Shown here: piece after piece, positions 1 to 22,493 of the stretch | Layout: every line of letters begins with the position of its first letter | Numbering within the stretch: the first letter of the stretch is position 1 | DNA from: a virus | Direction: 5' to 3' (one strand) | DNA length: 23,837 nt | Virus record (IMG/VR): IMGVR_UViG_3300023301_002423 | Coordinates: 1 to 23,837 of that record | Notes under the pieces: generated by a model | The model's database searches: none | What the model was told of the DNA's origin: nothing | The model's input: the letters and a program-made list of their open reading frames with translations, nothing else | Translations under genes and position numbers: made by a program

Positions 1-1
1 T

Positions 2-466: not shown

Positions 467-469
467 CCT

Positions 470-1621: not shown

Positions 1622-2031
1622 AGTTTAAAAAACTAAATGGTGCAGTTGTATCAAAAAACATATCAAAGTATGCTGCTGATTGGGACGCAGCTTGTCTTTC
1701 TAAGTTTCAGCGAGGCGTAAAAGATTTCTTTCGGCCATATTGGCAGTATCACTTGTGCTATGAAGAAATTCCGTTAGTTGGAACTCGTTATCGCTTAGAT
1801 CTTTATAACGCATCTTTAAGATTAGCCGTGGAAAGTCATGGCGACCAGCACACCAAATACTCAGAATTCTTTCACGGCAACGTGATTGGATACCTAAACC
1901 AAATAAAAAGAGACTCTAAAAAACTAAATTGGTGCGAAATTAACGGAATTAGACTAATTGAAATTTACTACGACGAATTAAAGTTGCTCACTCCTGAGTG
2001 GATAAAAGAAAAATTCGACATTGAACTATGA
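1618..2031 (+). CDS. Vsr/DUF559-like PD-(D/E)XK endonuclease
   Basis: A 137-residue protein starting at GTG (overlapping the upstream TGA as GTGA) and ending in an ATGA overlap with the next gene. The core reads RYRLDLYNASLRLAVESHG with D61 and E72, followed by GDQH (75-78), then an RD-x-x-K helix (98-102) and WCEINGIRLIEIYYDEL. This is the pattern of very-short-patch-repair and DUF559/EDxHD-type nucleases of the restriction-endonuclease fold: acidic metal ligands on two strands, a conserved HG, and an NG-x-x-(L/V)I-x-I strand. It could be a repair or recombination nuclease working with the adjacent recombinase, or a free-standing homing-type nuclease. The fold call is fairly secure; the substrate is unknown. 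Confidence 0.7.
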   Translation: MKFKKLNGAVVSKNISKYAADWDAACLSKFQRGVKDFFRPYWQYHLCYEEIPLVGTRYRLDLYNASLRLAVESHGDQHTKYSEFFHGNVIGYLNQIKRDSKKLNWCEINGIRLIEIYYDELKLLTPEWIKEKFDIEL

Positions 2032-2861: not shown

Positions 2862-3150
2862 ACATGAATTTGAAGATAGTGAAGATAATAGACTCAATAA
2901 AGTATCGGCTACTGAGCTACCTCAATGCTTTTTGCACCAACTTAACGAATTTACTACCGGCGGCTTCCTCTATTTTCGGATAGACGAACTAGGCGGCATT
3001 CAACCTGTTTATTGTTTTGATAATGAGGTTTGCGAATTAGCGTTAACTAGTTATGCCACAAAATTCCTAAGACAAATTGAAATCCAATCAAACAAACGAA
3101 TCCAACACGAATTCCTTGAGTCCCAAGGAGATGAAAACGAAGAAGAATAG
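2845..3150 (+). CDS. Hypothetical acidic protein
   Basis: A 101-residue protein I do not recognise. It has acidic ends (EFEDSEDN near the N-terminus, GDENEEE at the C-terminus) and a central hydrophobic part with several aromatic residues and three Cys (CFLHQL, YCFDNEVCELAL). The start at 2845 is supported by GAGG at 2835-2838, six nt upstream, one of very few Shine-Dalgarno-like sites in this window. It overlaps the glycosyltransferase gene by 17 nt and the next gene by about 20 nt. The tight overlaps between the recombinase and helicase suggest cotranscription with replication genes. Its function is unknown. Confidence 0.65.
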   Translation: MNKENEHEFEDSEDNRLNKVSATELPQCFLHQLNEFTTGGFLYFRIDELGGIQPVYCFDNEVCELALTSYATKFLRQIEIQSNKRIQHEFLESQGDENEEE

Positions 3151-3514
3151 TCGTGGGCAAAAAATCGAGTATATACTTTCTCGACTGTTAGAACAAAAAC
3201 CAGACACATCAGCTTCGCTGAAAGCAGAATTTATGTTCTTCTCTCAGGTGTTTAAGAAATATCCAGAGTGGAACTTTTGGAGATTTATTGAACTAGGCTT
3301 TGTTATGAAAAGCGTATCTTGGCTAAAAACCGAGAGAGCAGACCGCATGATAAGCAACATGTGGAAATTGCATCTTGGGCGAAAGAAATTCAAGGTCGAA
3401 GAGTCAGAGTCGCCAGTATATGAAGATTTTTTACCAAAAAAATCAGGAGTTAGATTAAAACAATCACAAGTAGACAAAATAAGAGAATTTGAAAAACTAA
3501 ACAATAATGCTTAA
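3131..3514 (+). CDS. Hypothetical basic protein upstream of the replicative helicase
   Basis: A 127-residue protein using the ATG at 3131; the frame also opens at TTG 3077, but that start would overlap the preceding gene deeply. An AAGGAG lies directly against the ATG with no spacing, so it is probably not a working ribosome site. The N-terminus is basic (MKTKKNSRGQK), and a helical centre contains YPEWNFWRFIELGF and SVSWLKTERADRMISNMW. The C-terminus (GVRLKQSQVDKIREFEK) is amphipathic. It overlaps the start of the DnaB-like helicase by 8 nt. Position just before the helicase would fit a helicase loader or accessory factor, but no motif supports that, so it stays hypothetical. Confidence 0.65.
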   Translation: MKTKKNSRGQKIEYILSRLLEQKPDTSASLKAEFMFFSQVFKKYPEWNFWRFIELGFVMKSVSWLKTERADRMISNMWKLHLGRKKFKVEESESPVYEDFLPKKSGVRLKQSQVDKIREFEKLNNNA

Positions 3515-5027
3515 ATCAAAAGAAATTGCCAGTGCAGATTTAGAAAAAAGTGTAATCTCCGGGGTATTGAATAATCCAGACGTAATTTACGACATAGATT
3601 TTCTAGAAGTCGAAGATTTTTATTCGCATGAATACCACCGCGCAATTTGGAGCGTAGTTAAAGATTTCCATAAGAACGGCCAAGAATTAAATAAATTGTT
3701 AATTGCACAGCGCATTACAGCCTTAAAGCTAGATGCCAGAGCAGAATTTAAGGCCGCTGACTATCTCGATGCATTATTTTATCTTCCTGATGCAAAAACA
3801 GCAGATTCAACGCGAAAATATTCAGCAGAACTAAAAAAGATTAGTATGCGGCGGCATATTATCGAAGCCTCAGAACAAGTAATCTCTGAAATGGTAAGCG
3901 GCGCAGAAGGCAAAACTTACGATGAAATCCAAGAGCTTGCAGACAAAACCTTTAACCACAACATTGATTTTTACGACTACACACAAGAATTTGAAGACAT
4001 TTATGAAGACCTAGAAGAAAAAATGGAATTCTTAGGCGACACTCAGCCTGAACCCCAAGGATTCTACGGACCGTTCAAGCGATACAACGAGCTTTACGGA
4101 CCATACAGACCCGGCTCTATCACCGTTACAGGAGCTAGGAGCGGCGGTTCTAAAACAACTTCTGGAATGTTTATTTGCACGAATATTGCAAAAAACTACG
4201 GCGTTCCAATTTTACATTTAGATCACGGAGAAATGAGCAAAGAAGAATTGCAATTTCGAGTTGTTTGTATGCTTTCTGGCGGTAAAATACCTTTTCATGC
4301 TGTGGAGTCAGGCAAGTGGAAAAGCAATGAAGAATTTCGTAAAATTATGATTAACGATGTTTTTGCTACGATTAAAAAGTATAATTTAAAAAATTACTAT
4401 CGAGATATTAGTCATAAAACAGGCCGAGAAGCAGTATCCATGATTAGAAGGTTTTATTACAAAAACATTGGTCGCGGAAATCCATTTTTCACCCACCTTG
4501 ATTATCTCAAGCCTTTTGATGGCGAAGACCCTAATACTCCCGAGTGGAAAGCTATGGGTAGCTTTGTGCAAAGCATTAAGAGCTTATACAGCAACGAAAT
4601 GAAAACTCAGTTTTACACAAGTCTTCAGCTTAATCGTTCTGGTATCACAAAGAATAAAAACTCAGCCTCGGTTGATGACTCTGAAAACACTTTTGGAATT
4701 TCCGACAGAATTGTTCAGCAAAGCACGCATTCATTTATTTTGCGCGAAATGCTTCTTGATGAAGTTGCGGTAGAAGGCGGCGATGCAAACGCTAAGATGA
4801 TTTGCGTTAAACATAGACACTTAGGCGAAAAAGCAGAAGATGCCATTAAGTATGTAAAGATGCCTGACAATACCTATCGCAAAAACCACATCAGGTTGGA
4901 TATTAAGAACTTTCATATTGAAGAGCGCGGAGATTTAAAACAATATGTCACGGCGCATCGTGATGATATTTTACTTGCACAAGGCGGCGAAATATTTAGC
5001 GAAGAAGATGGATCAATAGAATTTTAA
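3507..5027 (+). CDS. dnaB: DnaB-like replicative helicase with atypical Walker A
   Basis: A 506-residue protein with the two-part DnaB organisation. The N-terminal helical domain begins ASADLEKSVISGVLNNPDVI, as in DnaB (E-x-x-VLG-x-L), and is followed by a linker and a RecA-like C-terminal ATPase starting near residue 195. The Walker A region is TGARSGGSKTT (208-218). Aligned with the DnaB pattern GARPSMGKT, the Gly before the catalytic Lys is Ser (S215, K216). LDHGEMSKEEL (238-248) matches the DnaB SLEMS motif with catalytic Glu E242, and FFTHLDYLKPF (327-337) is Walker B. KHRHLGEK corresponds to the K/R-finger region. It is expected to be a hexameric 5'-3' fork helicase acting with the primase encoded at 5348. 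The family call is strong; full ATPase activity with this P-loop is less certain. Confidence 0.88.
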   Translation: MLKSKEIASADLEKSVISGVLNNPDVIYDIDFLEVEDFYSHEYHRAIWSVVKDFHKNGQELNKLLIAQRITALKLDARAEFKAADYLDALFYLPDAKTADSTRKYSAELKKISMRRHIIEASEQVISEMVSGAEGKTYDEIQELADKTFNHNIDFYDYTQEFEDIYEDLEEKMEFLGDTQPEPQGFYGPFKRYNELYGPYRPGSITVTGARSGGSKTTSGMFICTNIAKNYGVPILHLDHGEMSKEELQFRVVCMLSGGKIPFHAVESGKWKSNEEFRKIMINDVFATIKKYNLKNYYRDISHKTGREAVSMIRRFYYKNIGRGNPFFTHLDYLKPFDGEDPNTPEWKAMGSFVQSIKSLYSNEMKTQFYTSLQLNRSGITKNKNSASVDDSENTFGISDRIVQQSTHSFILREMLLDEVAVEGGDANAKMICVKHRHLGEKAEDAIKYVKMPDNTYRKNHIRLDIKNFHIEERGDLKQYVTAHRDDILLAQGGEIFSEEDGSIEF

Positions 5028-5031
5028 AATT

Positions 5032-5337
5032 ATGAGCAAGAAAAAAGTAAAATTTAATGATAAGGAACTCGACTATGAAAACCTATCGAACATTGCAAAG
5101 GCTGATGTGGTAAAGCTATTGCAGCTTTTTGAAAAGGTTAGCGAGGAAGCTGGTAAAATTGGAATTCCAGTAATGTGTTTAGCTGCCACTACAACTGGCT
5201 GTCTTTTTAACTGCACTTACGAGCCTCAGAAAGACGATGACGAACAAACTAAGCTATGGATGCTACTTGGCGGCGTTAAAGAAAACCTAGAAGAAAGCTT
5301 TGGCATCGAAGTTGAATTTCACTCCACCAACGACTAA
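5032..5337 (+). CDS. Hypothetical protein between helicase and primase genes
   Basis: A 101-residue soluble protein I do not recognise. It opens with a basic stretch (MSKKKVKFNDKELDYENL), then a helix (DVVKLLQLFEKVSEEAGKIG), a hydrophobic strand with two Cys (CLAATTTGCLFNC region), an acidic linker QKDDDEQTK, and a C-terminal helix (LLGGVKENLEESFGIEVEF). It starts 4 nt after the helicase stop in the AAAATTATG context typical of this window, and the primase follows after 10 nt. Placement between helicase and primase suggests replication-linked expression; nothing more can be supported. Confidence 0.65.
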   Translation: MSKKKVKFNDKELDYENLSNIAKADVVKLLQLFEKVSEEAGKIGIPVMCLAATTTGCLFNCTYEPQKDDDEQTKLWMLLGGVKENLEESFGIEVEFHSTND

Positions 5338-5347
5338 GAGAAATAAA

Positions 5348-6352
5348 ATGTTTGACGCAAAAACTAAGCGAGCACTTATTGTTGAACCTAGCGATAACCA
5401 TGAAGACCTAATTTATGATTCTTCTGACGTTAGATCAATTCTTGAATCAATGGGATACGTAGCAATGGATGGCGGTGGAGACTTTTTTCGTTCTGCTGCC
5501 TTGTATCGCGGTGGAAGCAATCCGTCTTCGCTTTCTATCAACAAAAAAACTGGTAGATTCGTAGACTTTGCTGCACAAAAATCAGGCAACCTAAAAGATT
5601 TAATTTCTTTAACAGTTGGCAGCGATCCACAAAATACCGAAAAGTTCCTAAAAGAACTAGGGTCTTTTCAAAAAGAAACTCGTATACGTCCCAACATTAT
5701 AGAGATAAAAAAAACAAAGGTCTATGACGAATCAATGCTATCTAATTTGATTCCAGATTACTCCTACTACTTGTCTCGCAAAATTTCCGTAGCGGTGCAA
5801 AAAAGATTTCAGCTTGGTATTGCCAAACAACACCAAATGGCCAATCGTGTTGTTATGAACCTTAGAAACGACCAAGGACAAATAACAGGCTTTTATGGAC
5901 GGTGGAACAGCGATGATGTTCCAAAGAGCGTATTAAAACACAAAATAGTTGGAGATAAACAAAACTTCTTGTTTCCTTTGATGGCAAAAAAAGCTATAAT
6001 GTATTCAAGGGAAGTAATACTTGTTGAATCACCATCAGATGTTCTTTCGTTATACGAGGCAGGAATAGAAAACTGCATCTGCCTTTTTGGAATAAAAATG
6101 TTTCCCATGCAAATTAAAAATCTAATCAAGTGGGGAACAAAAACAATTTTTATTTCTTTAAACAAAGATGGCACACACAATGAGTATGCCGGACAAAGAG
6201 CAACAGAAGTTATAGGCAAAAAACTAAGCGGCCTATTTTCCAGAATCGAAGGTGTTCAGCCTCCGCTTAACGACTGGAACGAAGTTTTAAAAGCAGAAAC
6301 ACCAAGTTACCTCAGAGACTTTTGGAGACAAAAATTAACAATTCCAGAGTAA
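5348..6352 (+). CDS. DnaG-type (Toprim) primase, atypical motifs
   Basis: A 334-residue protein using ATG 5348; the frame extends upstream to 5300 but that part overlaps the preceding gene. Residues 44-90 (DFFRSAALYRGGSNPSS, then SINKKTGRFVDF and GNLKDLISLTVG) follow the CHC2 primase N-domain pattern but lack the zinc-binding Cys/His set. The Toprim part has the catalytic Glu in VILVESPSDVLSLYEAG (E227), then a strand IFISLNKDGTHN where the usual D-x-D is N-K-D (N272, D274), then AGQRAT and NDWNEVLK. It should make RNA primers on the lagging strand with the DnaB-like helicase. Class assignment is good. Loss of zinc ligands and of the first Toprim Asp makes activity less certain, and a primase-derived helicase partner is an alternative. 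Confidence 0.75.
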   Translation: MFDAKTKRALIVEPSDNHEDLIYDSSDVRSILESMGYVAMDGGGDFFRSAALYRGGSNPSSLSINKKTGRFVDFAAQKSGNLKDLISLTVGSDPQNTEKFLKELGSFQKETRIRPNIIEIKKTKVYDESMLSNLIPDYSYYLSRKISVAVQKRFQLGIAKQHQMANRVVMNLRNDQGQITGFYGRWNSDDVPKSVLKHKIVGDKQNFLFPLMAKKAIMYSREVILVESPSDVLSLYEAGIENCICLFGIKMFPMQIKNLIKWGTKTIFISLNKDGTHNEYAGQRATEVIGKKLSGLFSRIEGVQPPLNDWNEVLKAETPSYLRDFWRQKLTIPE

Positions 6353-6360
6353 GCAAAATT

Positions 6361-7827
6361 ATGATTGATAAAAACATTTCAAACAAAGCCAAGAAACTTA
6401 TCTTAGCTGGTCGCCGCACCGAAGCAAGAAAGTATATTCAAGCAGCCACGGGACTTAAAGAGCGTCAGGCGCAAGAATGGACGAAGAGACTTGCTGAAGA
6501 GCCAGAGGCCGCAGACAGTTGCAGCGAAAAATTTGATAGTAAAAGCTCGCTTGAATTTTCCGAAGAATACGTTTATAATTCCGACACAAAAAAATACATC
6601 TTCTTTTGCAAAAAAGCTGGCAAGAATATTGTTTTAGAATCATCAGTAGTAGAGGCAATTATTTCTAACTATTCTAATTTCGACGGCGAACAAGGATCAA
6701 TCAATCAAATTTCTGCGAAGTTTCAAATTCCAAGAGTTGTTCTTATGGAAATCTTACGCATTCTTTCTTTTACTCACGACTCGGTTCCAGTGACTCAGGA
6801 AAAATTGGCTGAAAAAGATGAAGACGTAATTGTTGAAGACCTATTAAGCGAAAAGCGGTTTTCACTTCTTCAGCGTTTTCAAAAGAAAGATTGGGAACAA
6901 ACAAAAAATGACGCAGTAAAGTGGAATGAATATCAGTCGGGATTAATAAAGCCACTTGAAAATTTCCTTGACACTTGGCAACCGCCAGCATATAAGACGT
7001 ATAAGCCAATCGTTGCCAAAGAAAAAAATGCAGTTTCATTCTTAGCAGTTCTTTCTGACTTGCATTATGGCGCAAAATCAAATGCCAAGTCTATGTTTAG
7101 GGGCGAATCAATGTCAACTCAGTGGACCGTTAATTGTGTAAACAAGTATTGGCAGGAAATCATTACTGATATTAAAAAGTTTAATCTTAACATTGAATGC
7201 CTTAATATTATTTCCTTGGGTGACATTTTGCACTCTTCGAACAATTTGGGCATGACTACCAAAGGCACGCCACTTCGCTGCGACTTGATGAACGAAGAAA
7301 TGTTTGACGCAGCATTTAACTCGCTATGCGAATTTATTGACCAGCTTTCGCGCGTTGCTCAAAAAACAATTATTAGATCGTGTCCCGGCAATCATTTTGG
7401 TGTTGGAGATTCGATTTTATTCAAAGCTCTTTCTATGTATTTTAGAGAACAGCCGAACATTAGCTTTGAAATTATTTATGCGCCACTAGGAGTTTTTGTA
7501 GAAAGAAGTTTGGGTGTAGTCTATGGACACGGAGCTTCTAATTTTTACAAAGCAAAAGTGTTTGGACCAAAACTACAATCTATTGTTCAAAGCGCAATTA
7601 TTCATTGCAATGAGGATTTTCGCGGAGTAAAAGCAAAGGCTGCACTTTTTGCAGATCTTCATCACACCGAGCAAAAACAATTCAATGATTTTGATTTTTA
7701 CTTATTTCCTTCAGTTACTAGGAGTGACGAATATGCCGATTCGTTAGGCTTGTATGGACAGCCGCGCCAACAATCTTTGGTTCTTGACGATGAGGGAATT
7801 AAAGCGGTGCTTAACTATCGTTTTTGA
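6361..7827 (+). CDS. Calcineurin-like metallophosphoesterase with N-terminal helical/HTH region
   Basis: A 488-residue protein; I chose ATG 6361 (AAAATTATG context) over the upstream TTG 6322, which overlaps the primase. Residues 1-50 are basic and helical (ARKYIQAATGLKERQAQEW). Residues 108-140 (INQISAKFQIPRVVLMEILR) look like a helix-turn-helix. The catalytic domain spans about 225-488 with DLH (233-235), GD (287-288), GNH (343-345), GHG (389-391) and DLHH (432-435), the full set of dimetal phosphoesterase motifs. Such phage proteins are often labelled DNA repair exonucleases by resemblance to Mre11/SbcD. The HTH plus position after primase suggests action on nucleic acid, which is inference. 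Confidence 0.75.
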   Translation: MIDKNISNKAKKLILAGRRTEARKYIQAATGLKERQAQEWTKRLAEEPEAADSCSEKFDSKSSLEFSEEYVYNSDTKKYIFFCKKAGKNIVLESSVVEAIISNYSNFDGEQGSINQISAKFQIPRVVLMEILRILSFTHDSVPVTQEKLAEKDEDVIVEDLLSEKRFSLLQRFQKKDWEQTKNDAVKWNEYQSGLIKPLENFLDTWQPPAYKTYKPIVAKEKNAVSFLAVLSDLHYGAKSNAKSMFRGESMSTQWTVNCVNKYWQEIITDIKKFNLNIECLNIISLGDILHSSNNLGMTTKGTPLRCDLMNEEMFDAAFNSLCEFIDQLSRVAQKTIIRSCPGNHFGVGDSILFKALSMYFREQPNISFEIIYAPLGVFVERSLGVVYGHGASNFYKAKVFGPKLQSIVQSAIIHCNEDFRGVKAKAALFADLHHTEQKQFNDFDFYLFPSVTRSDEYADSLGLYGQPRQQSLVLDDEGIKAVLNYRF

Positions 7828-7828
7828 C

Positions 7829-8419
7829 ATGACCATTACTATTGCAGGAACAGCCGGACGCAAAGAAGACGGACCAAAGTTAAATAAGTCTTTATATTCG
7901 GCAATGTGCTTAAAAACACTAGAAATTATTGATTCGTTATATCTAGACAGCGAAAGTAAAATAACCTTAGTTAGCGGTGGCGCGGCTTGGGCAGATCACA
8001 TTGCTGTTTTACTGTTCTTAAAGTATCCCGGAAAACTTAATCTCGACCTATGCTTACCAACGAATATCGAATCAGAAGCATATTTCGATGACGGCTCTAT
8101 TGATTGGGTAAAAAATCCCGGCAGAACATGTAATTGTTATCACAGAAAGTTTGGACTAGCGGTGGACCGAAGACCAATAAGAGATATTAATAAGGCCATA
8201 GAGCTTGGAGCGAAAGCTCAAGTATTTGACGGATTTTACGCGCGAAACGCAACAATGGCACAATCAGATATGGTAATTGCCTTGACATTTGGAAATAATG
8301 TGGTAAAAAATGGTGGAACAAAACACATGACGGATTTATACATCAAGGATGGCGGCAAAGAGCTATTTCATATTTCGCTGCCTTCGCTTGAAATAAAAAG
8401 ATTGGTTCAAAATGAGTGA
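7829..8419 (+). CDS. SLOG-superfamily Rossmann-fold protein
   Basis: A 196-residue protein starting at ATG 7829, just after the upstream stop; earlier start-like codons lie inside the preceding gene. The N-terminal strand is TITIAGTAGRKEDG (2-15), then ITLVSGGAAWADHIAVLL (45-62), matching the SLOG/DprA/YspA signature of a hydrophobic strand, SGG-A-x-x-(V/A)D and a following helix. Later ATMAQSDMVIALTFG (141-155) and NGGTKHMTDLY (161-171) fit the second nucleotide-binding half. SLOG proteins bind nucleotides or nucleotide-derived ligands and include toxin-, defence- and DNA-uptake-related members. It overlaps the next gene by 8 nt. A Cys/His patch (CNCYH, 101-105) is unusual. The ligand and role are not determinable here. 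Confidence 0.65.
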   Translation: MTITIAGTAGRKEDGPKLNKSLYSAMCLKTLEIIDSLYLDSESKITLVSGGAAWADHIAVLLFLKYPGKLNLDLCLPTNIESEAYFDDGSIDWVKNPGRTCNCYHRKFGLAVDRRPIRDINKAIELGAKAQVFDGFYARNATMAQSDMVIALTFGNNVVKNGGTKHMTDLYIKDGGKELFHISLPSLEIKRLVQNE

Positions 8420-8684
8420 GGCAAAAAAAGCTAGACCAGCAATCGCAGCAGAAAGGCGCAAGAAAGATCCCAATAGAAAAGCCAAGTCGCTTAAATTTCT
8501 TGAAAGTTACGAGCCAGCAAGAACAAAAAACGTAAAAACAATTACGCTACTAAAGAATATTGAAGTATTGAAAGCCGAAACAGCAAGCTCTTGTTTTCGT
8601 CCAGACCTTTACCTAAACGGTGGAAGAAGTTGCATTTTCTGCAATTTGTATGAACACTGCGCTTGCCCGATAAAAAGACAATGA
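8412..8684 (+). CDS. Small basic protein with C-terminal Cys cluster
   Basis: A 90-residue protein. The N-terminal half is strongly basic (KKARPAIAAERRKKDPNRKAK), suggesting nucleic-acid contact. The C-terminus holds CFRPDLYLNGGRSCIFC followed by NLYEHCACP, five Cys plus a His, consistent with a small zinc-binding knuckle. It overlaps the SLOG gene by 8 nt and the following 50-codon gene by ATGA, so the three are probably translated as one coupled group. I do not recognise the family. Confidence 0.6.
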   Translation: MSEAKKARPAIAAERRKKDPNRKAKSLKFLESYEPARTKNVKTITLLKNIEVLKAETASSCFRPDLYLNGGRSCIFCNLYEHCACPIKRQ

Positions 8685-8833
8685 ACAGAGAAGAATACGA
8701 TAGTTTGAAAAACTCAGGAATGCTTTGGGAAATCTATCCTGATTTTACGGGATATTTTTTTGAAGATTTAAGAATATTGAAACAGCAAACAGAAAACAAA
8801 GATGAAATTGAAAACAACGAACAGCCGATTTAG
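8681..8833 (+). CDS. Small conserved-looking phage protein (50 aa)
   Basis: A short gene that starts at the ATGA overlap with the Cys-rich gene and ends in TAG inside the first codons of the next gene (which starts at 8802). The 50-residue product begins MNREEYDSLKNSGMLWEIYP and contains DFTGYFFEDLRILKQQ before an Asn/Glu-rich tail. The LW-E-x-YP-x-x-TG-x-x-x-x-D pattern resembles tiny phage proteins found in early regions, though I cannot name a family. The gene-coupled start and otherwise unfilled gap support it being real. Confidence 0.55.
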   Translation: MNREEYDSLKNSGMLWEIYPDFTGYFFEDLRILKQQTENKDEIENNEQPI

Positions 8834-9797
8834 ATTAAGTGCATCAACACTCAAGAGTTATTCTTCTTGCAGTTGGCAGTATTTTGCTAAAAAACACCTT
8901 CGCTTACCCGACGAAGGTAACGATGGAAGCAACAGAGGCACGATTAACCATACGCTCTTTGAATGCCTTACCAAGAGATTTCTACGCTCTGGCTGCAAAA
9001 AGCTCACACAGAGCATCGTGGACGCGGGAAACCCATTCCTAGTTCCAGTTATTAATAGGTTCCTAGAGAAACAGTTTAGAAAATACCAATTAGGAGATTT
9101 TGACAACAAAGATCAAAACAACAGAGACTTGGTTGCGACAATGATTGTTATGGCGTTAACCAGCGATTTCTACAACGAAGGAATGCAAACATTGTCCGCT
9201 GAACAGGAAATTCTAATTGAAACTCCAGAATATGCTTTGGTTGGATACATTGACAAACTCATTCACGACGAAGCGAATGATAAATTCCTAATCATAGATT
9301 ACAAAAGCAGTCAGTCTATTGACGACCACAAAACACAAGCTCTTTGTTACGCCCTTTGGTGTTTGAAAGTTCGCGGCAAACAATCCAAGGCGGTTTTTGT
9401 AAACCTAAGATTTCCTGACGAACCATTTAGTTGCTATGAGTTTTCAGACGAACAGCTTTGGGGCTTTGAACAATACTTAGTATACATGTATGGTCTACTC
9501 ACTAATTTTGACGAAAACAAAGCTAGTGCTAATTTTGCCGCAGACTTAGGTTACTTGCCCAAGGGTGCTCCATTTGGCGGTCGAGCACAATGCGGATATT
9601 CTAAGTTTCCCGGCCACAAAAACAAATTCGGAAAAGAATACTACGTGTGTTTTGCAAAGTTTCCTCGAAAGTATTACGGAATTACTAACGAACAAGGAGA
9701 TATTATTAGAACCGCCGATACAGCAGAACAATTAGGCTGGAAGCCCGGAGACGGACAAATCGTAGAATTAGCATACAAGGGTTGCCCTAAATTTTAA
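8802..9797 (+). CDS. RecB/Cas4-like PD-(D/E)XK nuclease
   Basis: A 331-residue protein with the complete RecB-family nuclease pattern. RLSASTLKSYSSCSWQYFAK (11-30) is the usual entry motif. RGTINHTLFE (45-54) carries the motif-I His, VGYIDKLI (147-154) the Asp, IIDYKSS (164-170) the D-x-K, and QALCYALW (179-186) the Q-x-x-x-Y motif. A C-terminal region of about 80 residues contains C264, C283 and C328, which with C23 could form a Cas4/AddB-type Fe-S or zinc site, although the spacing is wider than usual. It probably acts as an exonuclease in phage recombination or end processing. Its start overlaps the 50-codon gene by 32 nt. Nuclease assignment is strong; the metal cluster is speculative. 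Confidence 0.82.
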   Translation: MKLKTTNSRFRLSASTLKSYSSCSWQYFAKKHLRLPDEGNDGSNRGTINHTLFECLTKRFLRSGCKKLTQSIVDAGNPFLVPVINRFLEKQFRKYQLGDFDNKDQNNRDLVATMIVMALTSDFYNEGMQTLSAEQEILIETPEYALVGYIDKLIHDEANDKFLIIDYKSSQSIDDHKTQALCYALWCLKVRGKQSKAVFVNLRFPDEPFSCYEFSDEQLWGFEQYLVYMYGLLTNFDENKASANFAADLGYLPKGAPFGGRAQCGYSKFPGHKNKFGKEYYVCFAKFPRKYYGITNEQGDIIRTADTAEQLGWKPGDGQIVELAYKGCPKF

Positions 9798-9800
9798 ATT

Positions 9801-10169
9801 ATGAAAAAATACAAAAACATGCAAGAGTGGATAAGCGATCATTCGCCAAAAAACAAAGCCGAAGTTAAACCAAAAAATAAAATAAGTATATTTTGGCGCA
9901 TCAAGTCTTTATTTGAGTTGATTAGGGGTGGTATTGCAGCAATCGTTTTGCTATACAGGTTTAAAAACCTAGACATTAAGGTTTCGCCGCAAGACCCAAG
10001 GCTAAAGAGCAAACCGTTGATCTTAGAATTCGACGAGGACCAAATCGGGAACGTTTCATACGTTGGGATTTCTCGCTCAACACCTAACGATGACCAGCTA
10101 GAGTTAGATTTGGATCAAGATAAAGGCACGAGTAGGTTCACGTTTCCAGAGGGCCATGTAGCTATCTAA
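9801..10169 (+). CDS. Hypothetical protein with one amphipathic/hydrophobic segment
   Basis: A 122-residue protein in the AAATTATG start context, 3 nt after the nuclease gene. The N-terminal third is basic (MKKYKNMQEW, KPKNKISIFWRIK). Residues 37-52 (LFELIRGGIAAIVLLY) form a hydrophobic helix that might contact membrane but is short for a full transmembrane span. The C-terminal part is acidic and strand-rich (LILEFDEDQIG, DQLELDLDQDKG). I do not recognise it. It is the last gene before the putative promoter of the nrd genes. Confidence 0.6.
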   Translation: MKKYKNMQEWISDHSPKNKAEVKPKNKISIFWRIKSLFELIRGGIAAIVLLYRFKNLDIKVSPQDPRLKSKPLILEFDEDQIGNVSYVGISRSTPNDDQLELDLDQDKGTSRFTFPEGHVAI

Positions 10170-10210
10170 TACAGTTTTTTTCGTCTATTACTAGGAATAT
10201 TTTTTCCTTA

Positions 10211-10243
10211 TTGCTTGCTGCAAATAAGTATGTAAAATACAAT
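10211..10243 (+). promoter_or_regulatory. Putative sigma70 promoter for nrdB-nrdA
   Basis: The 101-nt gap upstream of nrdB is AT-rich and holds two overlapping promoter-like pairs. One is TTGCTT (10211-10216), 16 bp, TAAAAT (10233-10238). The other is TTGCTG (10215-10220), 17 bp, TACAAT (10238-10243). Either would give a leader of about 20-30 nt before ATG 10271. It is weaker than the four near-consensus promoters downstream. The rest of the gap shows only a weak inverted repeat around 10190-10206. Confidence 0.45.
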
Positions 10244-10270
10244 ACGACACGAAAAAAGATAAACATAAAT

Positions 10271-11242
10271 ATGATTTTTGAAGAACAGATTAGTAGAAAA
10301 CCCGACAATTACCCTTGGACGCAGCAATTTATCGAAGCAGCACAAAACGGATTCTGGACGCACAGAGAATTTAATTTTCAAAGTGACGTTCAAGACTTTT
10401 TGGTTAAATTAACAGAACAAGAAAGGCAGATTGTAGTGCGGGCACTTTCCACAATAGGCCAGCTAGAGATTAGTGTGAAAAAGTTTTGGAGTAAACTCGG
10501 GGATAATTGTCCGCATCCTTCGCTTTACGACTTGGGCTTTGTATTTGCCTCGCAAGAGGTTATACACGGAGATAGTTACGAAAGTTTGTTGGAAAAACTA
10601 GGATTAGAGCAAGCATTTGACGATCTTTTAAAGCAAGATATTATACAAGGCCGAGTTGGGTATCTCAAAAAGCATTTGCACAAATTTCACGCTGATAATA
10701 AAAAACAGTTTGTTTATTCAATAATTCTTTTTTCTATTTTTATTGAAAATCTTGCGCTCTTTTCTCAGTTTTATACTATAATGTGGTTCGGAAGATTCAA
10801 AAATGTTCTAAAGGACACAGACAAGCAGGTAGATTATACGTCAAGAGAAGAAAACTTGCACTTTGAAGCTGGAGCAAAAATTATCAATACTATTAGAGAA
10901 GAGCATCCAGAGCTTTTTGACGAAGAATTAGAGACTAAGATTCGTTCAGAATGCCAAGAGGCAATCGAGTATGAGTTTAAAATCATTGAATGGATTGTTA
11001 ATGGATATAACGAAGATGGACTAAATTCAGAATTATTGAAAAACTTCATTAAAAACCGCTTGAATGAAAGCTTGGTTAAAATTGGGTATTCTGCAATGTT
11101 TGATATTGATTCGCAATTGTTAGCCAAAACTTCTTGGTTCGACGAACAAATACTTGGCAACAATCACAGCGACTTTTTCTTTGGTCGCCCCACCGAATAT
11201 TCGAAGAAATCAAAAAGTTTCGACGAAAACAGTTTATTTTAA
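10271..11242 (+). CDS. nrdB: Ribonucleotide reductase class Ia, small (beta) subunit
   Basis: A 323-residue NrdB that supplies the tyrosyl radical for ribonucleotide reduction. The start is ATG 10271; the frame opens earlier but that part covers the promoter region. Dimetal ligands are recognisable: QLEI (E66), SQEVIHGDSY (E96, H99), FIENLALF (E159) and SREENLHFEAG (E194, H197). Y103 in GDSYESLL aligns with the radical Tyr of E. coli NrdB (SRSYTH), arguing for the class Ia rather than a Tyr-less subclass. Length is near T4 NrdB (about 390) but somewhat short. The gene is followed after 2 nt by nrdA, so the order is beta then alpha. Confidence 0.93.
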   Translation: MIFEEQISRKPDNYPWTQQFIEAAQNGFWTHREFNFQSDVQDFLVKLTEQERQIVVRALSTIGQLEISVKKFWSKLGDNCPHPSLYDLGFVFASQEVIHGDSYESLLEKLGLEQAFDDLLKQDIIQGRVGYLKKHLHKFHADNKKQFVYSIILFSIFIENLALFSQFYTIMWFGRFKNVLKDTDKQVDYTSREENLHFEAGAKIINTIREEHPELFDEELETKIRSECQEAIEYEFKIIEWIVNGYNEDGLNSELLKNFIKNRLNESLVKIGYSAMFDIDSQLLAKTSWFDEQILGNNHSDFFFGRPTEYSKKSKSFDENSLF

Positions 11243-11244
11243 AA

Positions 11245-13704
11245 ATGCAAAACGACAAATACAAATGGCTTAACAGCGCAAGCAAACAATTTTTAGCCAA
11301 CGGCTACTTAGAACAAGGTGAAGATGCTATTGAAAGGTTTTCTGATATTGCAATGTCAGCAGAAAAATCGCTAGGGATCAAGGGATTTGCGGAAAAATTT
11401 GAAAACTATCTTTCTTTGGGATATTATTCTTTATCTTCGCCTATTGTATCAAACTTTGGCAAAAAAAGAGGAATGCCAATTAGTTGTTTCAGCGTGCTTG
11501 TTCCTGACAATACTGCGGGGATTTTAAACAAAGCCTCTGAAGTTGGCATTATGAGTAAGAGCGGAGGCGGCACAGCAGGATTCTTTGGAAAAGTAAGGCC
11601 AAGGGGTTCTGTTATTTCTACTGGTGGCGCAACAGACGGACCAGTTAGATTCATGCAAATCTTTGAAACAGTTACAGATGTGATTAGTCAGGGCGGAGTT
11701 CGCAGAGGTTCCTTTGCAGCATATCTTCCAGTAGAACATCCAGACATTTTAGAATTTTTACAAATAAGAGGCGAAGGTCATCCAATTCAAAACATTAGTT
11801 TGGGAGTTACTATTACCGACAAATGGATGGAAGAAATGATTGGTGGAGACAAGCCAAAAAGAAAAATTTGGGGAAAGATTTTAGAAAAAAGAAGTGAAAC
11901 TGGATATCCATATATTTTCTTTACTGACACGGCTAATAAAAATGCACCACAAGTTTACAGAGATAAAGGCAAGATTATTCATTCAAGTCAACTCTGTGTT
12001 ACTGGCGATCAAAGAGTCGTGTCGCAGCACGGAATGTTAACCGCCAAAGAGCTTTGTGAAATTGGCGGCGAGCTACAACTATTTGACAATAAAAACATTG
12101 TTGGTGCAGAGCCAATGACTTTGGTTGAAAAAAATGCTGATGTTTACAAGGTTTGTTTGAGCAACGGCATGGAGCACAAAGTAACCGGATATCATAAGCT
12201 GGTGAAATTTATCAACAGAAAACAAAATGTTGGAGAAGAACAAGTAATAACCACAGAAAACACAGAAGTTAAAAACTTAAAAGTTGGTGATTTCGTTGCT
12301 GTTCAAACCGCAAAGGGTATTTTTGGAAATAAAAATATGCCAGTTGAAGCTTTTTCGTTGGGCAAGCAGCGGAGAAACGAAACGAGAGAACATATTCCAA
12401 GCTGGATTTGGCAATCTAATGAAGAAACTATTTGGCAATACATAAGGGGTCTTTTTTATGTAAGGAATGCTGTTCGCGTTGGCAAGTCCAACGGTAAGGC
12501 AATTCAACCCCACCTTTCTTCTACGAATATCGGATGGTTAAAAGAAATTCAGTTGCTCCTAAGCAACCTTGGAGTAAAAACATCTATAAAAATATTAAAG
12601 ACTCTTTTGCCTAGCGTCAAGGGCGACCGCTTAGAATACAAAACAAAAGACTGCTGGAGGCTCACCATAGGCAATGAAGCCGACACCAAGAAATTCCATA
12701 AAATAACCTCGATTAGTTATGAAGGAAAAGAAGATGTTTATTGCACCACGGTTCATTCAAAAGAACACCTTTGGGTTTGCAACGGATTCGTAACGCACAA
12801 CTGCGCTGAAATTTTTTTAAGCACAGACGAGGACGAATCGTTCGTATGCAACCTTTCGTCAATGAATCTTTTGAGCTACGAAGAATGGAAAGATACTGAT
12901 GCTGTAGAAACACTTATTTATTTTTTAGACGCGGTAATGTCTGAATTTATTGAAAAAACAACAGGTGTTCAACACATGGAATGTTCAAGAAAATTTGCTG
13001 TTTCTCAAAGAGCTTTGGGACTAGGCGTTTTAGGTTGGCACAGCTATTTGCAATCAAAATCAATTCCGTTTGAATCAATGGAAGCTAAGATTAAGAATGT
13101 AGAAATATTTAAATTGTTGAGAGACAGGTGTTTACAAGCCTCAAAAGATCTTGCCGTGATGTTTGGCGAACCAGAATTATTAAAAGGATATGGTTTGCGC
13201 AACGTAACGCAAATGGCAATCGCGCCAACAACTTCATCTTCTTTTATTTTTGGCGGGGTTTCACAAGGAATCGAGCCAATGAATAGTAATTATTTTGTTA
13301 AAAAGCTGGCCAAAGGAAATTTTACTTATAAAAATCCTTTCTTAAAAGAAGTATTAAAGAAATACGACAAGAACGACGAAGCCACTTGGAAGTCAATTTT
13401 AGTAAAAGGCGGTTCGGTGCAGCACTTGGAATTTCTTTTGGAAATCGAAAAGAATACTTTTAAAACCTTTGGGGAAATCAGCCAAAAGGAAATTGTTATA
13501 CAAGCCGCGCAACGTCAAAAGTATATTGATCAAGGCCAATCGCTCAACCTAATGATTCCTTCGGATGCAGAGCCTAGAGAGATTAACGCCTTGTTGATTG
13601 AAGGCTGGAGATTGGGAATTAAAACTTTTTATTATCAGCGCGGGGCTAATCCCGCACAAGAATTGGCGAGAAAGTTGAATCATTGCGTTAGTTGTGAGGC
13701 GTAA
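11245..13704 (+). CDS. nrdA: Ribonucleotide reductase class I, large (alpha) subunit, with intein
   Basis: An 819-residue precursor; removal of the 269-residue intein (251-519) leaves a 550-residue NrdA. ATG 11245 follows nrdB by 2 nt. MPISCFSVLVPD (C81) matches E. coli C225. C520, which follows the intein in CAEIFL, matches the thiyl-radical C439, and FVCNLSS matches C462. TFYYQRG holds the two radical-transfer Tyr residues, and the C-terminus CVSCEA carries the redox Cys pair (C814, C817). There is no N-terminal ATP-cone, so dATP feedback through that site is probably absent; the enzyme is much shorter than E. coli or T4 NrdA (about 750). The residue two before the radical Cys is Gln (Q249) where Asn is usual. 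Confidence 0.93.
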   Translation: MQNDKYKWLNSASKQFLANGYLEQGEDAIERFSDIAMSAEKSLGIKGFAEKFENYLSLGYYSLSSPIVSNFGKKRGMPISCFSVLVPDNTAGILNKASEVGIMSKSGGGTAGFFGKVRPRGSVISTGGATDGPVRFMQIFETVTDVISQGGVRRGSFAAYLPVEHPDILEFLQIRGEGHPIQNISLGVTITDKWMEEMIGGDKPKRKIWGKILEKRSETGYPYIFFTDTANKNAPQVYRDKGKIIHSSQLCVTGDQRVVSQHGMLTAKELCEIGGELQLFDNKNIVGAEPMTLVEKNADVYKVCLSNGMEHKVTGYHKLVKFINRKQNVGEEQVITTENTEVKNLKVGDFVAVQTAKGIFGNKNMPVEAFSLGKQRRNETREHIPSWIWQSNEETIWQYIRGLFYVRNAVRVGKSNGKAIQPHLSSTNIGWLKEIQLLLSNLGVKTSIKILKTLLPSVKGDRLEYKTKDCWRLTIGNEADTKKFHKITSISYEGKEDVYCTTVHSKEHLWVCNGFVTHNCAEIFLSTDEDESFVCNLSSMNLLSYEEWKDTDAVETLIYFLDAVMSEFIEKTTGVQHMECSRKFAVSQRALGLGVLGWHSYLQSKSIPFESMEAKIKNVEIFKLLRDRCLQASKDLAVMFGEPELLKGYGLRNVTQMAIAPTTSSSFIFGGVSQGIEPMNSNYFVKKLAKGNFTYKNPFLKEVLKKYDKNDEATWKSILVKGGSVQHLEFLLEIEKNTFKTFGEISQKEIVIQAAQRQKYIDQGQSLNLMIPSDAEPREINALLIEGWRLGIKTFYYQRGANPAQELARKLNHCVSCEA
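11995..12801 (+). other. Intein inside NrdA with degenerate LAGLIDADG domain
   Basis: A 269-residue in-frame insertion between ...SSQL and CAEIFL. Splicing blocks are intact: Cys1 in CVTGDQRVV, block B HKVTGYHKL (T-x-x-H), block F around VYCTTVHSKEHLWVCNG, block G FVTHN with His-Asn, and Cys as the +1 extein residue. The middle (about codons 140-200 of the intein) has HIPSWIWQSNEETIWQYIRG, then LFYVRNAV, then LSSTNIGWLKEIQLLLSNLG. This follows a LAGLIDADG homing-endonuclease half, but the catalytic GLFDADG-type motif reads GLFYVRN and no second copy is seen. So it should splice but not cut DNA. The insertion point is the active-site Cys codon of the extein. Confidence 0.88.
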
Positions 13705-13730
13705 AACAAATTTTAAATAAAAATTGACAA
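13701..13730 (+). repeat. 30-bp exact direct repeat, copy 1 (promoter upstream module)
   Basis: Identical base for base to 14589-14618. It begins one base before the TAA stop of nrdA, runs through a pure A/T block resembling a sigma70 UP element, and ends just past TTGACA. The last 16 bp recur exactly at 22210-22225, and an 11-nt piece of the front half (TAAAACAAATT) lies at 17598-17608 directly before an ATG. Confidence 0.9.
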
Positions 13731-15654: not shown

Positions 15655-16977
15655 ATGTCGCTATCAAAACAATTAAAATCTCACGCTGACTTCAGCAAAC
15701 TAAATAGCGAACAACAAGATTTCTGCAAACTAGCATGTGAAGGATGGAATATTTTCCTATCAGGAAGCGCAGGAGTCGGCAAAAGTTTTTGCACAAAATT
15801 CCTGTGTGACTTTCTCGACAGCCAAGACGTATCTTATGGCAAAACCGCGCTGACTGGCATTGCTGCGTTAAATATAGGCGGCAGCACAATACATAGTTGG
15901 GCGGGAATTGGCCTTGGAACTGGCGACTTTGACGAAATCATGAAGTGGGTTTGGAGAAACAAAAAAGCAACTGGCAGAATTAGATCGGCCAAGCTTTTGT
16001 TGATCGATGAAATCAGCATGGCATCAGCAAGGATTGTTGATTTAATTGACAGGGTATTTAAAAAAGTTCGCGGAGACAATAGGCCGTTTGGAGGAATACA
16101 AGTTGTTTTGTGCGGAGACTTTTTTCAACTACAGCCAGTTTTTAGCGCAAATGATTTAGAGCAAAACCAATCGCTTGCTTTTGAATCAGCGGCGTGGTCA
16201 AAGGCTAATGTTAGATTAGTTGAGCTAACTAAAATTATTCGCCAAGACCACGAATCAGAATTCGCAAAAGTATTGAATGAGATTAGAGTTGGCAATACTT
16301 CTAATATCAAACTGATTAAAGATAGGATTGGAGTTAAACTGCCGCGAATTAACGGCTCTCTTCCTGTGAGAATTTTCGCGCACAACAAAGTCGTAGAGGC
16401 TTATAACAAAAAGGTTTTTGCAGTAGTGCCCGGCGCAATTAAAGCATTTTGGTGTAAAGACACTGGTGAATCAAAACACTCTGAGTTTTTTGACAAAAAT
16501 TGCAAAGCACCGAAAAAACTCGAACTAAAGATTGAGGCGCAAGTTTCGCTATGCTTTAATATTGATACTGAGGGCGGCTTGGTAAATGGATTAGTTGGCA
16601 AAGTCAAAGGCTTTGTTGAGGGCTATCCAGAAGTTCATTTTGTTAATGGTGTTAAGTCGATTATTCAGCCCGAATGTTGGGAACTAAAAGAACAAGTAAC
16701 GGTTGGCGGTAAAATTAAATATCGGGTAGTGGCAACTAGAACGCAAGTGCCATTGAGATTAAATTGGGCTTCAACTGTTCATTCTAATCAAGGCGTTACG
16801 TTAGAAGCGGTATCGGTTGATTTATCAGCCATTTTTGGCGAAGGTATGGGATATTCTGCACTTTCTAGGGTCAAGTCGATTGAAGGACTTAGTATTTTAA
16901 GAGATTTTGATGAATCGAGAATTGTTGCGAGCCAAAAGTGTTTAGATTTTTATAGGAATCAAAAGGTTAACAAGTAA
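15655..16977 (+). CDS. Pif1/RecD2-like superfamily 1B DNA helicase
   Basis: A 440-residue helicase. Walker A is GSAGVGKS (37-44). TGIAAL and STIHSWAGIG (67-72, 77-86) are motifs Ia-Ib of the Pif1 type. LLLIDEISM (114-122) is Walker B/motif II, and VLCGDFFQLQPV (151-162) motif III. Late in the protein STVHSNQGVTLEAVSVDLS and YSALSRVKSIEGL correspond to motifs V and VI. Length matches phage Dda (439 in T4). It is expected to be a 5'-3' helicase used in replication initiation, recombination or protein displacement. A TTGACA lies 4 nt before the start but has no usable -10. Its stop overlaps the next start by TAATG. Confidence 0.9.
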   Translation: MSLSKQLKSHADFSKLNSEQQDFCKLACEGWNIFLSGSAGVGKSFCTKFLCDFLDSQDVSYGKTALTGIAALNIGGSTIHSWAGIGLGTGDFDEIMKWVWRNKKATGRIRSAKLLLIDEISMASARIVDLIDRVFKKVRGDNRPFGGIQVVLCGDFFQLQPVFSANDLEQNQSLAFESAAWSKANVRLVELTKIIRQDHESEFAKVLNEIRVGNTSNIKLIKDRIGVKLPRINGSLPVRIFAHNKVVEAYNKKVFAVVPGAIKAFWCKDTGESKHSEFFDKNCKAPKKLELKIEAQVSLCFNIDTEGGLVNGLVGKVKGFVEGYPEVHFVNGVKSIIQPECWELKEQVTVGGKIKYRVVATRTQVPLRLNWASTVHSNQGVTLEAVSVDLSAIFGEGMGYSALSRVKSIEGLSILRDFDESRIVASQKCLDFYRNQKVNK

Positions 16978-17600
16978 TGGATTTCAACGATATAGATATT
17001 CGGACCATTAGTAGAAACGACTGCAAACCATTTTTATTGCAAATACATTATGCAAAAAGAATGCCTCACGTAAAATTCGCATTTGGTGCTTTTTACAACG
17101 ACGATTTATTAGGCGTAATAACTTATGGCGTTCCAGCAAACAGCAATTTAAATTCATTAGGCAATTTTGGCTGCTTAGAATTAAACCGACTATGCCTAAA
17201 AGATAATATTAAAAACCTATCGTCTTTTTTAATTGGTAATTCACTAAAATTGCTTCCAAAGCCGCTGGCGTTAGTTTCTTATGCGGATTCCTTACACAAT
17301 CATTGCGGTTATGTCTATCAGGCGACTAATTGGATATACTGCGGAATATCAAAAGGTGACAAAGAATATCAAATAAACGGCAAGCTGTTTCATAGAAAAA
17401 ATTGTTTTAATAAATTTGGAACAGGATCGCTAGTAAAGATTCAAGAATTGTTCGGCGTAGATAACGTGAAAGTCATTATGCAGGGAGACAAATATCGGTA
17501 TTTTCAACTACTAGGCGATAAAAAACAAAAAAAAGAAATGAAGATAGCCTTGGAGTCTAAATACAAAATATTGCCCTACCCAAAAATAACCAAAGAATAA
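16977..17600 (+). CDS. mom: Mom-like DNA adenine modification protein (GNAT-related)
   Basis: A 207-residue protein resembling Mu Mom and its phage relatives, which convert adenine in DNA to a carbamoylmethyl (acetamido-type) derivative that blocks many restriction enzymes. Signature features, in order: IHYAKRMP (H24, Y25), GVITYGVP (Y50), CLELNRLCL (R71), LVSYADSLHNHCGYVYQATN (99-118) and a following IYCG. The HY, Tyr, Arg and SYAD positions correspond by pattern to residues reported as important in Mu Mom; I matched them by memory, not alignment. The C-terminal 60 residues are basic. It lies directly after the helicase (TAATG) in a run of modification genes. A general acyltransferase is the alternative. 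Confidence 0.68.
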   Translation: MDFNDIDIRTISRNDCKPFLLQIHYAKRMPHVKFAFGAFYNDDLLGVITYGVPANSNLNSLGNFGCLELNRLCLKDNIKNLSSFLIGNSLKLLPKPLALVSYADSLHNHCGYVYQATNWIYCGISKGDKEYQINGKLFHRKNCFNKFGTGSLVKIQELFGVDNVKVIMQGDKYRYFQLLGDKKQKKEMKIALESKYKILPYPKITKE

Positions 17601-19573: not shown

Positions 19574-20305
19574 ATGATACAAGAATTATGGCATGGAGAT
19601 TGCTTAGAGTTGATAGAGAATATTCCCGATAAGTCGATAGATGTAATACTAACCTCTCCGCCATATATACAAGTTGGAAAATCTTACGATGAAAATATTA
19701 ATTATGAACAGGTTATTGACTCCTTATCCAATAAGCTCAAAGATAATGGCATATTTATTTGGCAAGTCGGCTGCTACATTAAAAAAGGATTTGTTCATTT
19801 TCTTGATATAGAAACCAACCCCTTTTTCGTAAAAAACAATTTTTCCTTAATTAACAGGGTTATATGGCACTATGGCCACGGACTACATTGCAAAAATAGA
19901 TTCTCAGGGAGATATGAAACCATTTGTTTTTACTCTAAGAATAAAGATCACGTTTTTAATTTAGACTCGATCAGGGTGCCATCTAAATATCCAAACAAAA
20001 AACACTTTAAAGGGCCGCGAAAAGGTGAGCTATCAGGGAATCCGCTTGGAAAAAACCCTTCGGATATATGGGCGATAACAAATGTAAAACACAACCATCC
20101 CGAAAAAACAGGCCATCCTTGCCAGTTTCCAGAGGAACTAGTTAGTCGGTGCATATTAGCTTTTTCCAACGAAAATGATATTATTTTTGATCCATTTTTG
20201 GGAAGCGGCACGACTTGCTTAGTCGCCAAAAACCTCAACCGCCAATTTATCGGCATTGAAAAAGAAAAAGAATATTATGATATCTGCACAGAAAGATTAA
20301 AATGA
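19574..20305 (+). CDS. DNA methyltransferase, beta-class amino-MTase (TSPPY)
   Basis: A 243-residue site-specific DNA methyltransferase. The catalytic motif VILTSPPYIQ (24-33) precedes the SAM-binding motif, which appears near the C-terminus as DPFLGSGTT (206-214). This order is that of beta-class N4-cytosine or N6-adenine enzymes, and the Ser in SPPY is compatible with either. GHPCQFPEELVSRCILAFS and FIGIEKEKEYYDICTERLK are characteristic C-terminal elements. No restriction enzyme gene is adjacent, so it is probably an orphan phage methyltransferase. It starts in the AAAATTATG context and ends in an ATGA overlap with the next small gene. Confidence 0.85.
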   Translation: MIQELWHGDCLELIENIPDKSIDVILTSPPYIQVGKSYDENINYEQVIDSLSNKLKDNGIFIWQVGCYIKKGFVHFLDIETNPFFVKNNFSLINRVIWHYGHGLHCKNRFSGRYETICFYSKNKDHVFNLDSIRVPSKYPNKKHFKGPRKGELSGNPLGKNPSDIWAITNVKHNHPEKTGHPCQFPEELVSRCILAFSNENDIIFDPFLGSGTTCLVAKNLNRQFIGIEKEKEYYDICTERLK

Positions 20306-20714: not shown

Positions 20715-21383
20715 ATGAAAGCACACGTAATGAAAAATGAATCTTTAGTGCTGTCCGCACATGTTGGACAGAACGCTAAAGTATTCGAGCAACTTATGAG
20801 TTTGCACGTTCCTCACGGTTCTGTTGTAGCTGATGTGACCTATGGAAAAGGGTGCTTCTGGAATACTATGCCGCAAGACCAATACAATCTTAAGGCAACA
20901 GACATTAAGGATGGGGTGGACTGCCGAAAACTCCCGTATGCTACAGGCACAATCGACTGTTTAGTGCTTGATCCGCCATACATCGAAGGCTTCTACCGTC
21001 GCCACAAAGATCACCTTGCTGGAACAGGATCGCACGCAAACATGCGAAACTATTACGGGAATCACTCTGCAACAGGAATCGTTGCAAAATGGCACGGTGC
21101 TGTTCGAGAAATGTATTTAGAATCCGCCAAGGAAGCCCGCCGCGTATTACGAAATAAAGGAATCCTCGTGGTCAAATGCCAAGACGAAGTGAGCGCCAAT
21201 AAGCAGTGGCTTACCCATGTCGAAATAATCAATGATTGCGCCGAGTTAGGCTTCTATGCAAAAGACCTGTTCGTAGTAGTGCGAACGAATCGACCAACAT
21301 GCTCAAAAATCTACAAACAGGCACACGCCCGCAAGAACCACTCTTACTTTTTAGTTTTTGAGAAACGCCAATCTCTTCCATAG
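20715..21383 (+). CDS. SAM-dependent DNA methyltransferase-like protein (DPPY)
   Basis: A 222-residue methyltransferase with the SAM site first and the catalytic motif second. [16 protein letters not shown] (37-52) is motif I, with D40 and the G-x-G-like loop, and [13 protein letters not shown] (82-94) is motif IV with DPPY, typical of N6-adenine methylation. [19 protein letters not shown] is the following strand pair. The C-terminal [11 protein letters not shown] gives the last strand. No clear target-recognition domain is seen, and the protein is short, so specificity is unknown. A hand count at 20761-21000 gives 112 G+C of 240, slightly above a sample elsewhere (100 of 240 at 6361-6600), not enough to claim recent transfer. 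Confidence 0.75.
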
Positions 21384-21407: not shown

Positions 21408-22208
21408 ATGATAATTAATTCACGAGCCAAAAACTTTTTCTCTTCCCTTGCTGAAAATTCAGTCAGCCTCACTGTGACTTCGCCTCCATACGACGACCTA
21501 AGAGACTACGGTGGCGAAAAATGGGACAACTCTATATTTAAAGAGATAGCAGATGAACTATATCGCGTCACAAAAGTTGGGGGTGTTGTAGCTTGAGTTG
21601 TTGGCGATCAAATGGTGAATGGATCAGAAAGCCTTTCGTCATTCAAGCAAGCTATTTATTTCAACTCTATTGGATTTAATCTAGACGATACGATAATCTA
21701 CAAGAAAAGAAACTTTGCCTTTCCTAGCAAAACCAGATACCACCAGACTTTTGAATATATCTTTGTGCTTTCTAAAGATCGTTCTCCGGTGACATTTAAC
21801 GCGATCAAGGATCGCCAAAATATTTACGTTGGCCAAAAGTCTCACGGAAAAAACAGAACCAAAGACGGGTGGCAACAAAACAAAGGTGGAGAAACCCGAG
21901 ACGAAATGGGAATGAGACATAATGTTTGGGAATACGTTACTGGCGGGGGACACGTAAGCCAAGAAAAAGTGGCTCACGAACACCCTGCGATATTTCCTTT
22001 TAAGCTGGCTTGTGATATTATTTATTCTTAGTCAAACGCCGGAGATTTAATTATTGACCCAATGGCAGGATCAGGAACAACAGGAATTGCCGCCAAAGAA
22101 CTCGGTAGAAATTTTTTGCTTAACGATGCGAATTTTGATTATTGCGAAGTGATGCAAAAAAGATTTTTAGAAAGGTTCGAGGAATTTGTTGAAATTCAAT
22201 ATTTGTAA
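21408..22208 (+). pseudogene. Beta-class DNA methyltransferase interrupted by in-frame TGA and TAG
   Basis: One continuous 267-codon frame that encodes a full methyltransferase except for TGA at 21594-21596 and TAG at 22029-22031. Before the first stop it has TVTSPPYDDLRDYGG (catalytic motif) and ELYRVTKVGGVVA. Between the stops are VVGDQMVNGSESLSSFKQAI, TFEYIFVLSK, NVWEYVTGGG and HPAIFPFKLACDIIYS. After the second stop come LIIDPMAGSGTTGIAAKELG and a normal C-terminus. Related enzymes read GGVVVWVVGD and SWSNEGD across these sites, so both stops replace expected Trp codons by G-to-A changes; three other TGG codons remain. No frameshift is seen. Most likely a recently inactivated gene; readthrough is an alternative. 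Confidence 0.85.
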
Positions 22209-22209
22209 G

Positions 22210-22225
22210 AAATAAAAATTGACAA
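22210..22225 (+). repeat. 16-bp partial copy of the promoter repeat
   Basis: Identical to the last 16 bp of the 30-bp repeats at 13701 and 14589 (A/T block plus TTGACAA). It lies immediately after the TAA stop of the broken methyltransferase, the same stop-codon-proximal position as the full copies. Confidence 0.8.
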
Positions 22226-22247
22226 TTTCAATAGCGGCTGATATTGT
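22219..22247 (+). promoter_or_regulatory. Sigma70 promoter P4 with extended -10
   Basis: TTGACA (22219-22224), 17 bp, TATTGT (22242-22247) preceded by TGA as an extended -10. Unlike P1-P3 it leaves a leader of about 20-25 nt before ATG 22278. A 6-bp inverted repeat, GTAGAT (22246-22251) and ATCTAC (22265-22270), overlaps the end of the -10 and the early leader and could be an operator or leader hairpin. Confidence 0.7.
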
Positions 22248-22277: not shown

Positions 22278-22493
22278 ATGCAAACAACTATACAAAAACA
22301 AACAATAACTATTGATGAATTTTGTGGATCACCACAAGGCAGCTTTGCCAGAATGATTCGCGGCAGTAGCATATTATGGAAAATCAGCCACGGAATAACC
22401 ATTGCATCGTTTCGCGGCAAAAGTGAACGAGTTGAAACCTTGAATCGTCGCAGAGCTAGGCTTGAAAATGCAGGATTTACAAAAATATTTTAA
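22278..22493 (+). CDS. Small hypothetical protein behind promoter P4
   Basis: A 71-residue protein: MQTTIQKQTITIDEFCGSPQ, then GSFARMIRGSSILWKISHGI, a strand TIASFRGKSER and a basic helix VETLNRRRARLENAG ending in FTKIF. The basic C-terminal half could contact nucleic acid. I recognise no family. It is first behind P4 and 2 nt before the next glycosyltransferase-like gene, with which it is presumably cotranscribed. Confidence 0.65.
   Translation: MQTTIQKQTITIDEFCGSPQGSFARMIRGSSILWKISHGITIASFRGKSERVETLNRRRARLENAGFTKIF

Follow-up and report, generated by a model that had tools for sequence, protein, structure and literature searches.

Phage methyltransferases play a role against host restriction. 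The described group closest to the gene analyzed here is that of the phage orphan beta-class enzymes (PF01555; PDLC03714; phrog_67), with which it has in common the motif order and the TSPPY and DPMAGSGTT motifs. Genes that carry transient in-frame stops have been described in bacteria, and the mobilome contains more than its share of them (Belinky et al. 2021, PMC7918605), and a low-level leaky reading of UGA as Trp is known, as in E. coli (PMC7918605). In phages, recoding has been reported that relies on suppressor tRNAs or on reassignment, with TGA read as Trp (table 4) or TAG read as Gln (table 15) (PMC11210395), and one crAss-like phage possesses suppressor tRNAs with both TCA and CTA anticodons, yet is without signs of amber suppression (PMC12386605). 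As for bacterial A-to-I editing, TadA is the only known enzyme and needs TACG within a YTACGAA loop (PMC12255301). Here we describe a phage gene with two premature stops which, in our assessment, is very probably a recently inactivated, nonsense-bearing orphan beta-class DNA methyltransferase, located beside two intact ones.

The gene is found in the window, by which we mean the whole stretch of 23,837 nucleotides that was analyzed (IMG/VR record IMGVR_UViG_3300023301_002423). Its frame runs from the ATG at 21408 to the TAA ending at 22208 and comprises 266 residues plus the stop, without frameshift. The relevant features are as follows.

16977..17600, plus strand: intact Mom-like DNA modification gene (Pfam Mom 1.4e-35; phrog_1384)
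19574..20305, plus strand: intact neighboring beta-class methyltransferase with TSPPY and DPFLGSGTT (Pfam 1.2e-50)
20715..21383, plus strand: intact neighboring DNA methyltransferase with a DPPY motif (phrog_24333, E 1.6e-69)
21408..22208, plus strand: interrupted beta-class N6/N4 DNA methyltransferase frame, 266 codons plus TAA (translation, Pfam, PADLOC)
21477..21491, plus strand: catalytic motif IV, TSPPY, codons 24-28, 5′ of the first stop (translation; conserved in the homologue alignments)
21594..21596, plus strand: premature TGA, codon 63, at a Trp column and within strand 55-65 of the predicted structure
21612..22031, plus strand: possible restart ORF, from the ATG of codon 69 to the TAG, with neither motif IV nor motif I (ORF list, start scan)
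22029..22031, plus strand: premature TAG, codon 208, at a Trp column (Phe in two homologues) and at the end of helix 198-208 of the predicted structure
22056..22082, plus strand: SAM-binding motif I, DPMAGSGTT, codons 217-225, 3′ of the second stop (translation)

Translation bears out what a preliminary description of this DNA had reported, namely a single unshifted frame in which both motifs are kept and which two stops prevent from encoding the whole enzyme without interruption; at the three remaining Trp codons (39, 155 and 174), TGG is indeed unchanged. TSPPY (motif IV) precedes the GxG SAM motif (motif I), which is the order of the beta class. Directly 3′ of the gene, a sigma-70-like promoter (TTGACA-17-TATTGT, the second hexamer being preceded by TG) can be recognized at 22219-22247, 5′ of a small ORF (22278-22493).

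When the stops are read through, the product is assigned to the N6_N4_Mtase family (PF01555, Pfam 2.4e-37), with 129.5 bits against a curated cut-off of 26.7, its best PADLOC profile is the orphan methyltransferase PDLC03714 (1.3e-68), and sequence comparison returned known DNA methyltransferases. We assembled homologues from IMG/VR viral sequences and from bacterial and archaeal genomes, 111 of which were aligned, 34 of them viral. These viral and cellular orphan enzymes are about 36-53% identical to the read-through product across most of its length; the alignment search of bacterial and archaeal genomes contributed 80 loci with 42-53% identity, a single-protein query against such genomes found no closer relatives, and annotated phage records contained no near match. 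The column of codon 63 is occupied by Trp in all homologues (34/34 viral, 111/111 in total) and that of codon 208 by Trp in 32/34 viral and 109/111 total homologues, the remaining two having Phe, so that the Trp expected at both places in the preliminary description is found in the relatives. Apart from its two premature stops, the window gene differs from the orphan beta-class enzymes by the lack of a GDC-like motif near the N terminus and by its residue 20, a Ser in place of the Asp present in nearly all homologues (111/111 of those aligned; one further homologue, L133, has Asn). This last homologue, an intact relative with 52% identity, is located downstream of Mom in a Mom-bearing phage contig.

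The remainder of the gene is well preserved. With the stops read as Trp, 52 of the 54 conserved columns are kept, the two changes being D20S and M118I, and the structure predicted for the read-through protein is a complete enzyme fold with high confidence (pLDDT 92, pTM 0.89). After correction for overall divergence, the gene ranks 90/112 for excess damage. The absence of excess damage at conserved sites besides the stops, in a frame that has not shifted, suggests a recent inactivation, as in genes that have acquired premature stops before any wider decay. Bacterial genes with transient stops (PMC7918605) likewise combine in-frame nonsense with an otherwise conserved sequence; unlike them, the window gene has two stops, and no relative found here is close enough for a dN/dS estimate.

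Translation would end at codon 62, giving a product that keeps motif IV and has lost the SAM site. The fragments might be produced separately by reinitiation and reassembled as a split enzyme, since the ATG of codon 69 opens an ORF of 139 residues, but the first in-frame start past the second stop is the ATG of codon 219, which lies inside motif I, so that D217 is lost. We consider this scenario to have almost no chance of being correct, and rejected it for want of a usable start 3′ of the second stop. Any restarted fragment would lack either the catalytic motif or a complete SAM motif, and no active enzyme would be expected to result.

The mutation spectrum of the lineage was taken from a sister contig (IMGVR_UViG_3300035698_018157), which is 94% identical over 13.7 kb (window 1-13730). 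Two side observations concern other genes of the window: the gene at 7754-8419 terminates a few codons sooner in the sister, whose TAA lies opposite the CAA at window 8408, and the large ribonucleotide reductase subunit (11242-13704) contains an apparent intein, its Pfam Intein_splicing score of 35.1 bits falling just short of the cut-off of 35.8. The two contigs differ by 696 transitions and 108 transversions overall, and by 190 transitions and 48 transversions at fourfold sites (path kappa 7.9). Such a transition-rich spectrum makes the conversion of TGG into a stop common. With the spectrum of this lineage, the probability that both nonsense mutations fall on TGG by chance is ~0.065 in simulation, and the overall coding spectrum gives ~0.11; two stops both at Trp are therefore only mildly unusual for a dead gene (p 0.06-0.11). 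When the second nonsense mutation arose, simulated genes had accumulated on average 6.8 missense changes at the 52 conserved columns (stop columns excluded). Two or fewer such changes occurred in 20% of the runs, and in 1.3% of the runs together with both stops on TGG. The low frequency of this combination points to recent events rather than to long drift, and the joint value of ~0.013, which purely neutral decay would rarely produce, mildly favors two events in quick succession, a selected loss, or an explanation linked to Trp.

It had also been proposed that the two changes reflect a deamination-like strand bias. G-to-A on the coding strand is the sole transition that makes TGG a stop. That both changes are G-to-A thus follows from the position of both stops at Trp and provides no separate evidence for strand-biased deamination. 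Moreover, the fourfold-site changes relative to the sister are balanced (GA 40, AG 50, CT 48, TC 52), without strand bias, and we do not retain this part of the proposal.

A Trp-related explanation would be that both stops are read as Trp, via suppressor tRNAs or lax host termination, so that the enzyme is still produced, perhaps in small amounts or late. Both stops do occupy Trp columns while the other conserved sites are kept, as in phage recoding the in-frame TGA stands at a Trp column, a phage with both suppressor tRNAs exists (PMC12386605), and leaky reading of TGA as Trp occurs in E. coli (PMC7918605). This reading would, however, need two different Trp-inserting suppressors, one for TGA and one for TAG, the phage TAG reassignment reported so far inserts Gln (PMC11210395), and a low-level UGA leak would leave the TAG unexplained. 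Furthermore, the 30 other genes of the window contain 111 TGG codons and no internal stop, and they end with TAA (16), TGA (11) or TAG (3), so that TGA and TAG terminate 14 of them; in several cases a gene ending in TGA overlaps its successor, which is read in another frame (for instance 470-1621 and 1618-2031). Read with the standard code, 10 further genes of the sister contig are likewise intact. The termini of the 30 genes, together with their Trp codon usage, thus rule out a global recoding of TGA or TAG as Trp, and the recurrent in-frame stop use across genes that marks recoding is seen in 0/30 of them. A tRNA scan of the window and of the sister contig found none, including tRNAs with TCA or CTA anticodons, although both contigs are genome fragments and a tRNA could be located elsewhere; an Rfam search of the window gave no match. 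The locus therefore departs from described phage recoding in that one gene only is affected, by two different stops both at Trp, with the standard code elsewhere and no tRNA found. We regard suppression of both stops as very unlikely.

Since each site is a Trp codon with A in place of G, a single mechanism, A-to-I editing of the mRNA, could in principle yield a Trp codon at each stop (UGA to UGI, UAG to UIG). The contexts of the two sites, GCTTGAGTTG and TTCTTAGTCAAA, are both devoid of the TadA motif, and no deaminase gene was recognized in the window. TadA editing was discarded, as TACG/YTACGAA is absent at both sites, and we give editing next to no credence. Likewise, we find it most improbable that phage or host decodes both the TGA and the TAG of this single gene as Trp, through paired suppressors or an unknown mRNA editing, as a conditional methylation switch. 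Of the two possibilities left open in the preliminary description, recent inactivation is thus supported by the intact frame, the conserved columns, the damage rank and the confident read-through model, while the suppression of both stops is disfavored by the standard code of the 30 other genes, by the lack of a tRNA in the window and sister fragments, and by the need for two suppressors.

The stops could also result from a consensus or assembly artefact, or from a minority strain variant captured in the metagenome contig while the dominant phage carries an intact gene. The site is represented by a single contig, the sister contig ends before the methyltransferase gene, and no second strain covering the stops was found in IMG/VR, whether searched with the protein or with a DNA pattern allowing either base, a search that possibly left out records very near the window. 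Nevertheless, the 30 other genes are intact, and random errors would be unlikely to produce two independent transitions within one gene; we thus hold an artefact or minority variant to be improbable.

We return to the reading of a recently inactivated gene, in the context of its neighborhood. Two intact methyltransferases lie upstream of the broken gene, and the Mom-like gene is kept in the sister contig, where its protein is 93% identical. In the sister, an m5C methyltransferase-like gene with GGSPCQSFS precedes the Mom-like gene (L006/L008, G001 22834-24385), whereas the window has at the same place a phrog_757 gene and a PIF1-like helicase, which indicates turnover among the modification genes of this lineage. 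Other members of the family are broken as well: a homologue from a Poribacteria MAG is interrupted at an Arg column by an in-frame TGA (L070:1501-2214), a phage homologue is truncated after about codon 98, beyond which the frame is lost (L046, from 1501), and a third is frameshifted (L044). Together with the gene replacement in the sister, these broken relatives suggest that loss or replacement of such genes is ordinary here. The loss may have been favored by selection to shed one of several methyltransferases, which would be in keeping with this neighborhood.

In its intact form, the enzyme is predicted to methylate phage DNA at adenine N6 or cytosine N4, probably against host restriction, and this marking role may be shared with, or have been taken over by, its two methyltransferase neighbors and the Mom-like protein. 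If both stops were truly read as Trp, the locus would represent a gene-specific dual stop suppression, for which we know of no precedent; beyond the Trp columns, we found nothing that points to it. The simplest reading is that of a recently disabled gene rather than of a new way of reading stop codons. With three methyltransferase genes close together, one of them recently broken, the locus would provide a modest example of how phages gain and lose DNA-modification genes.
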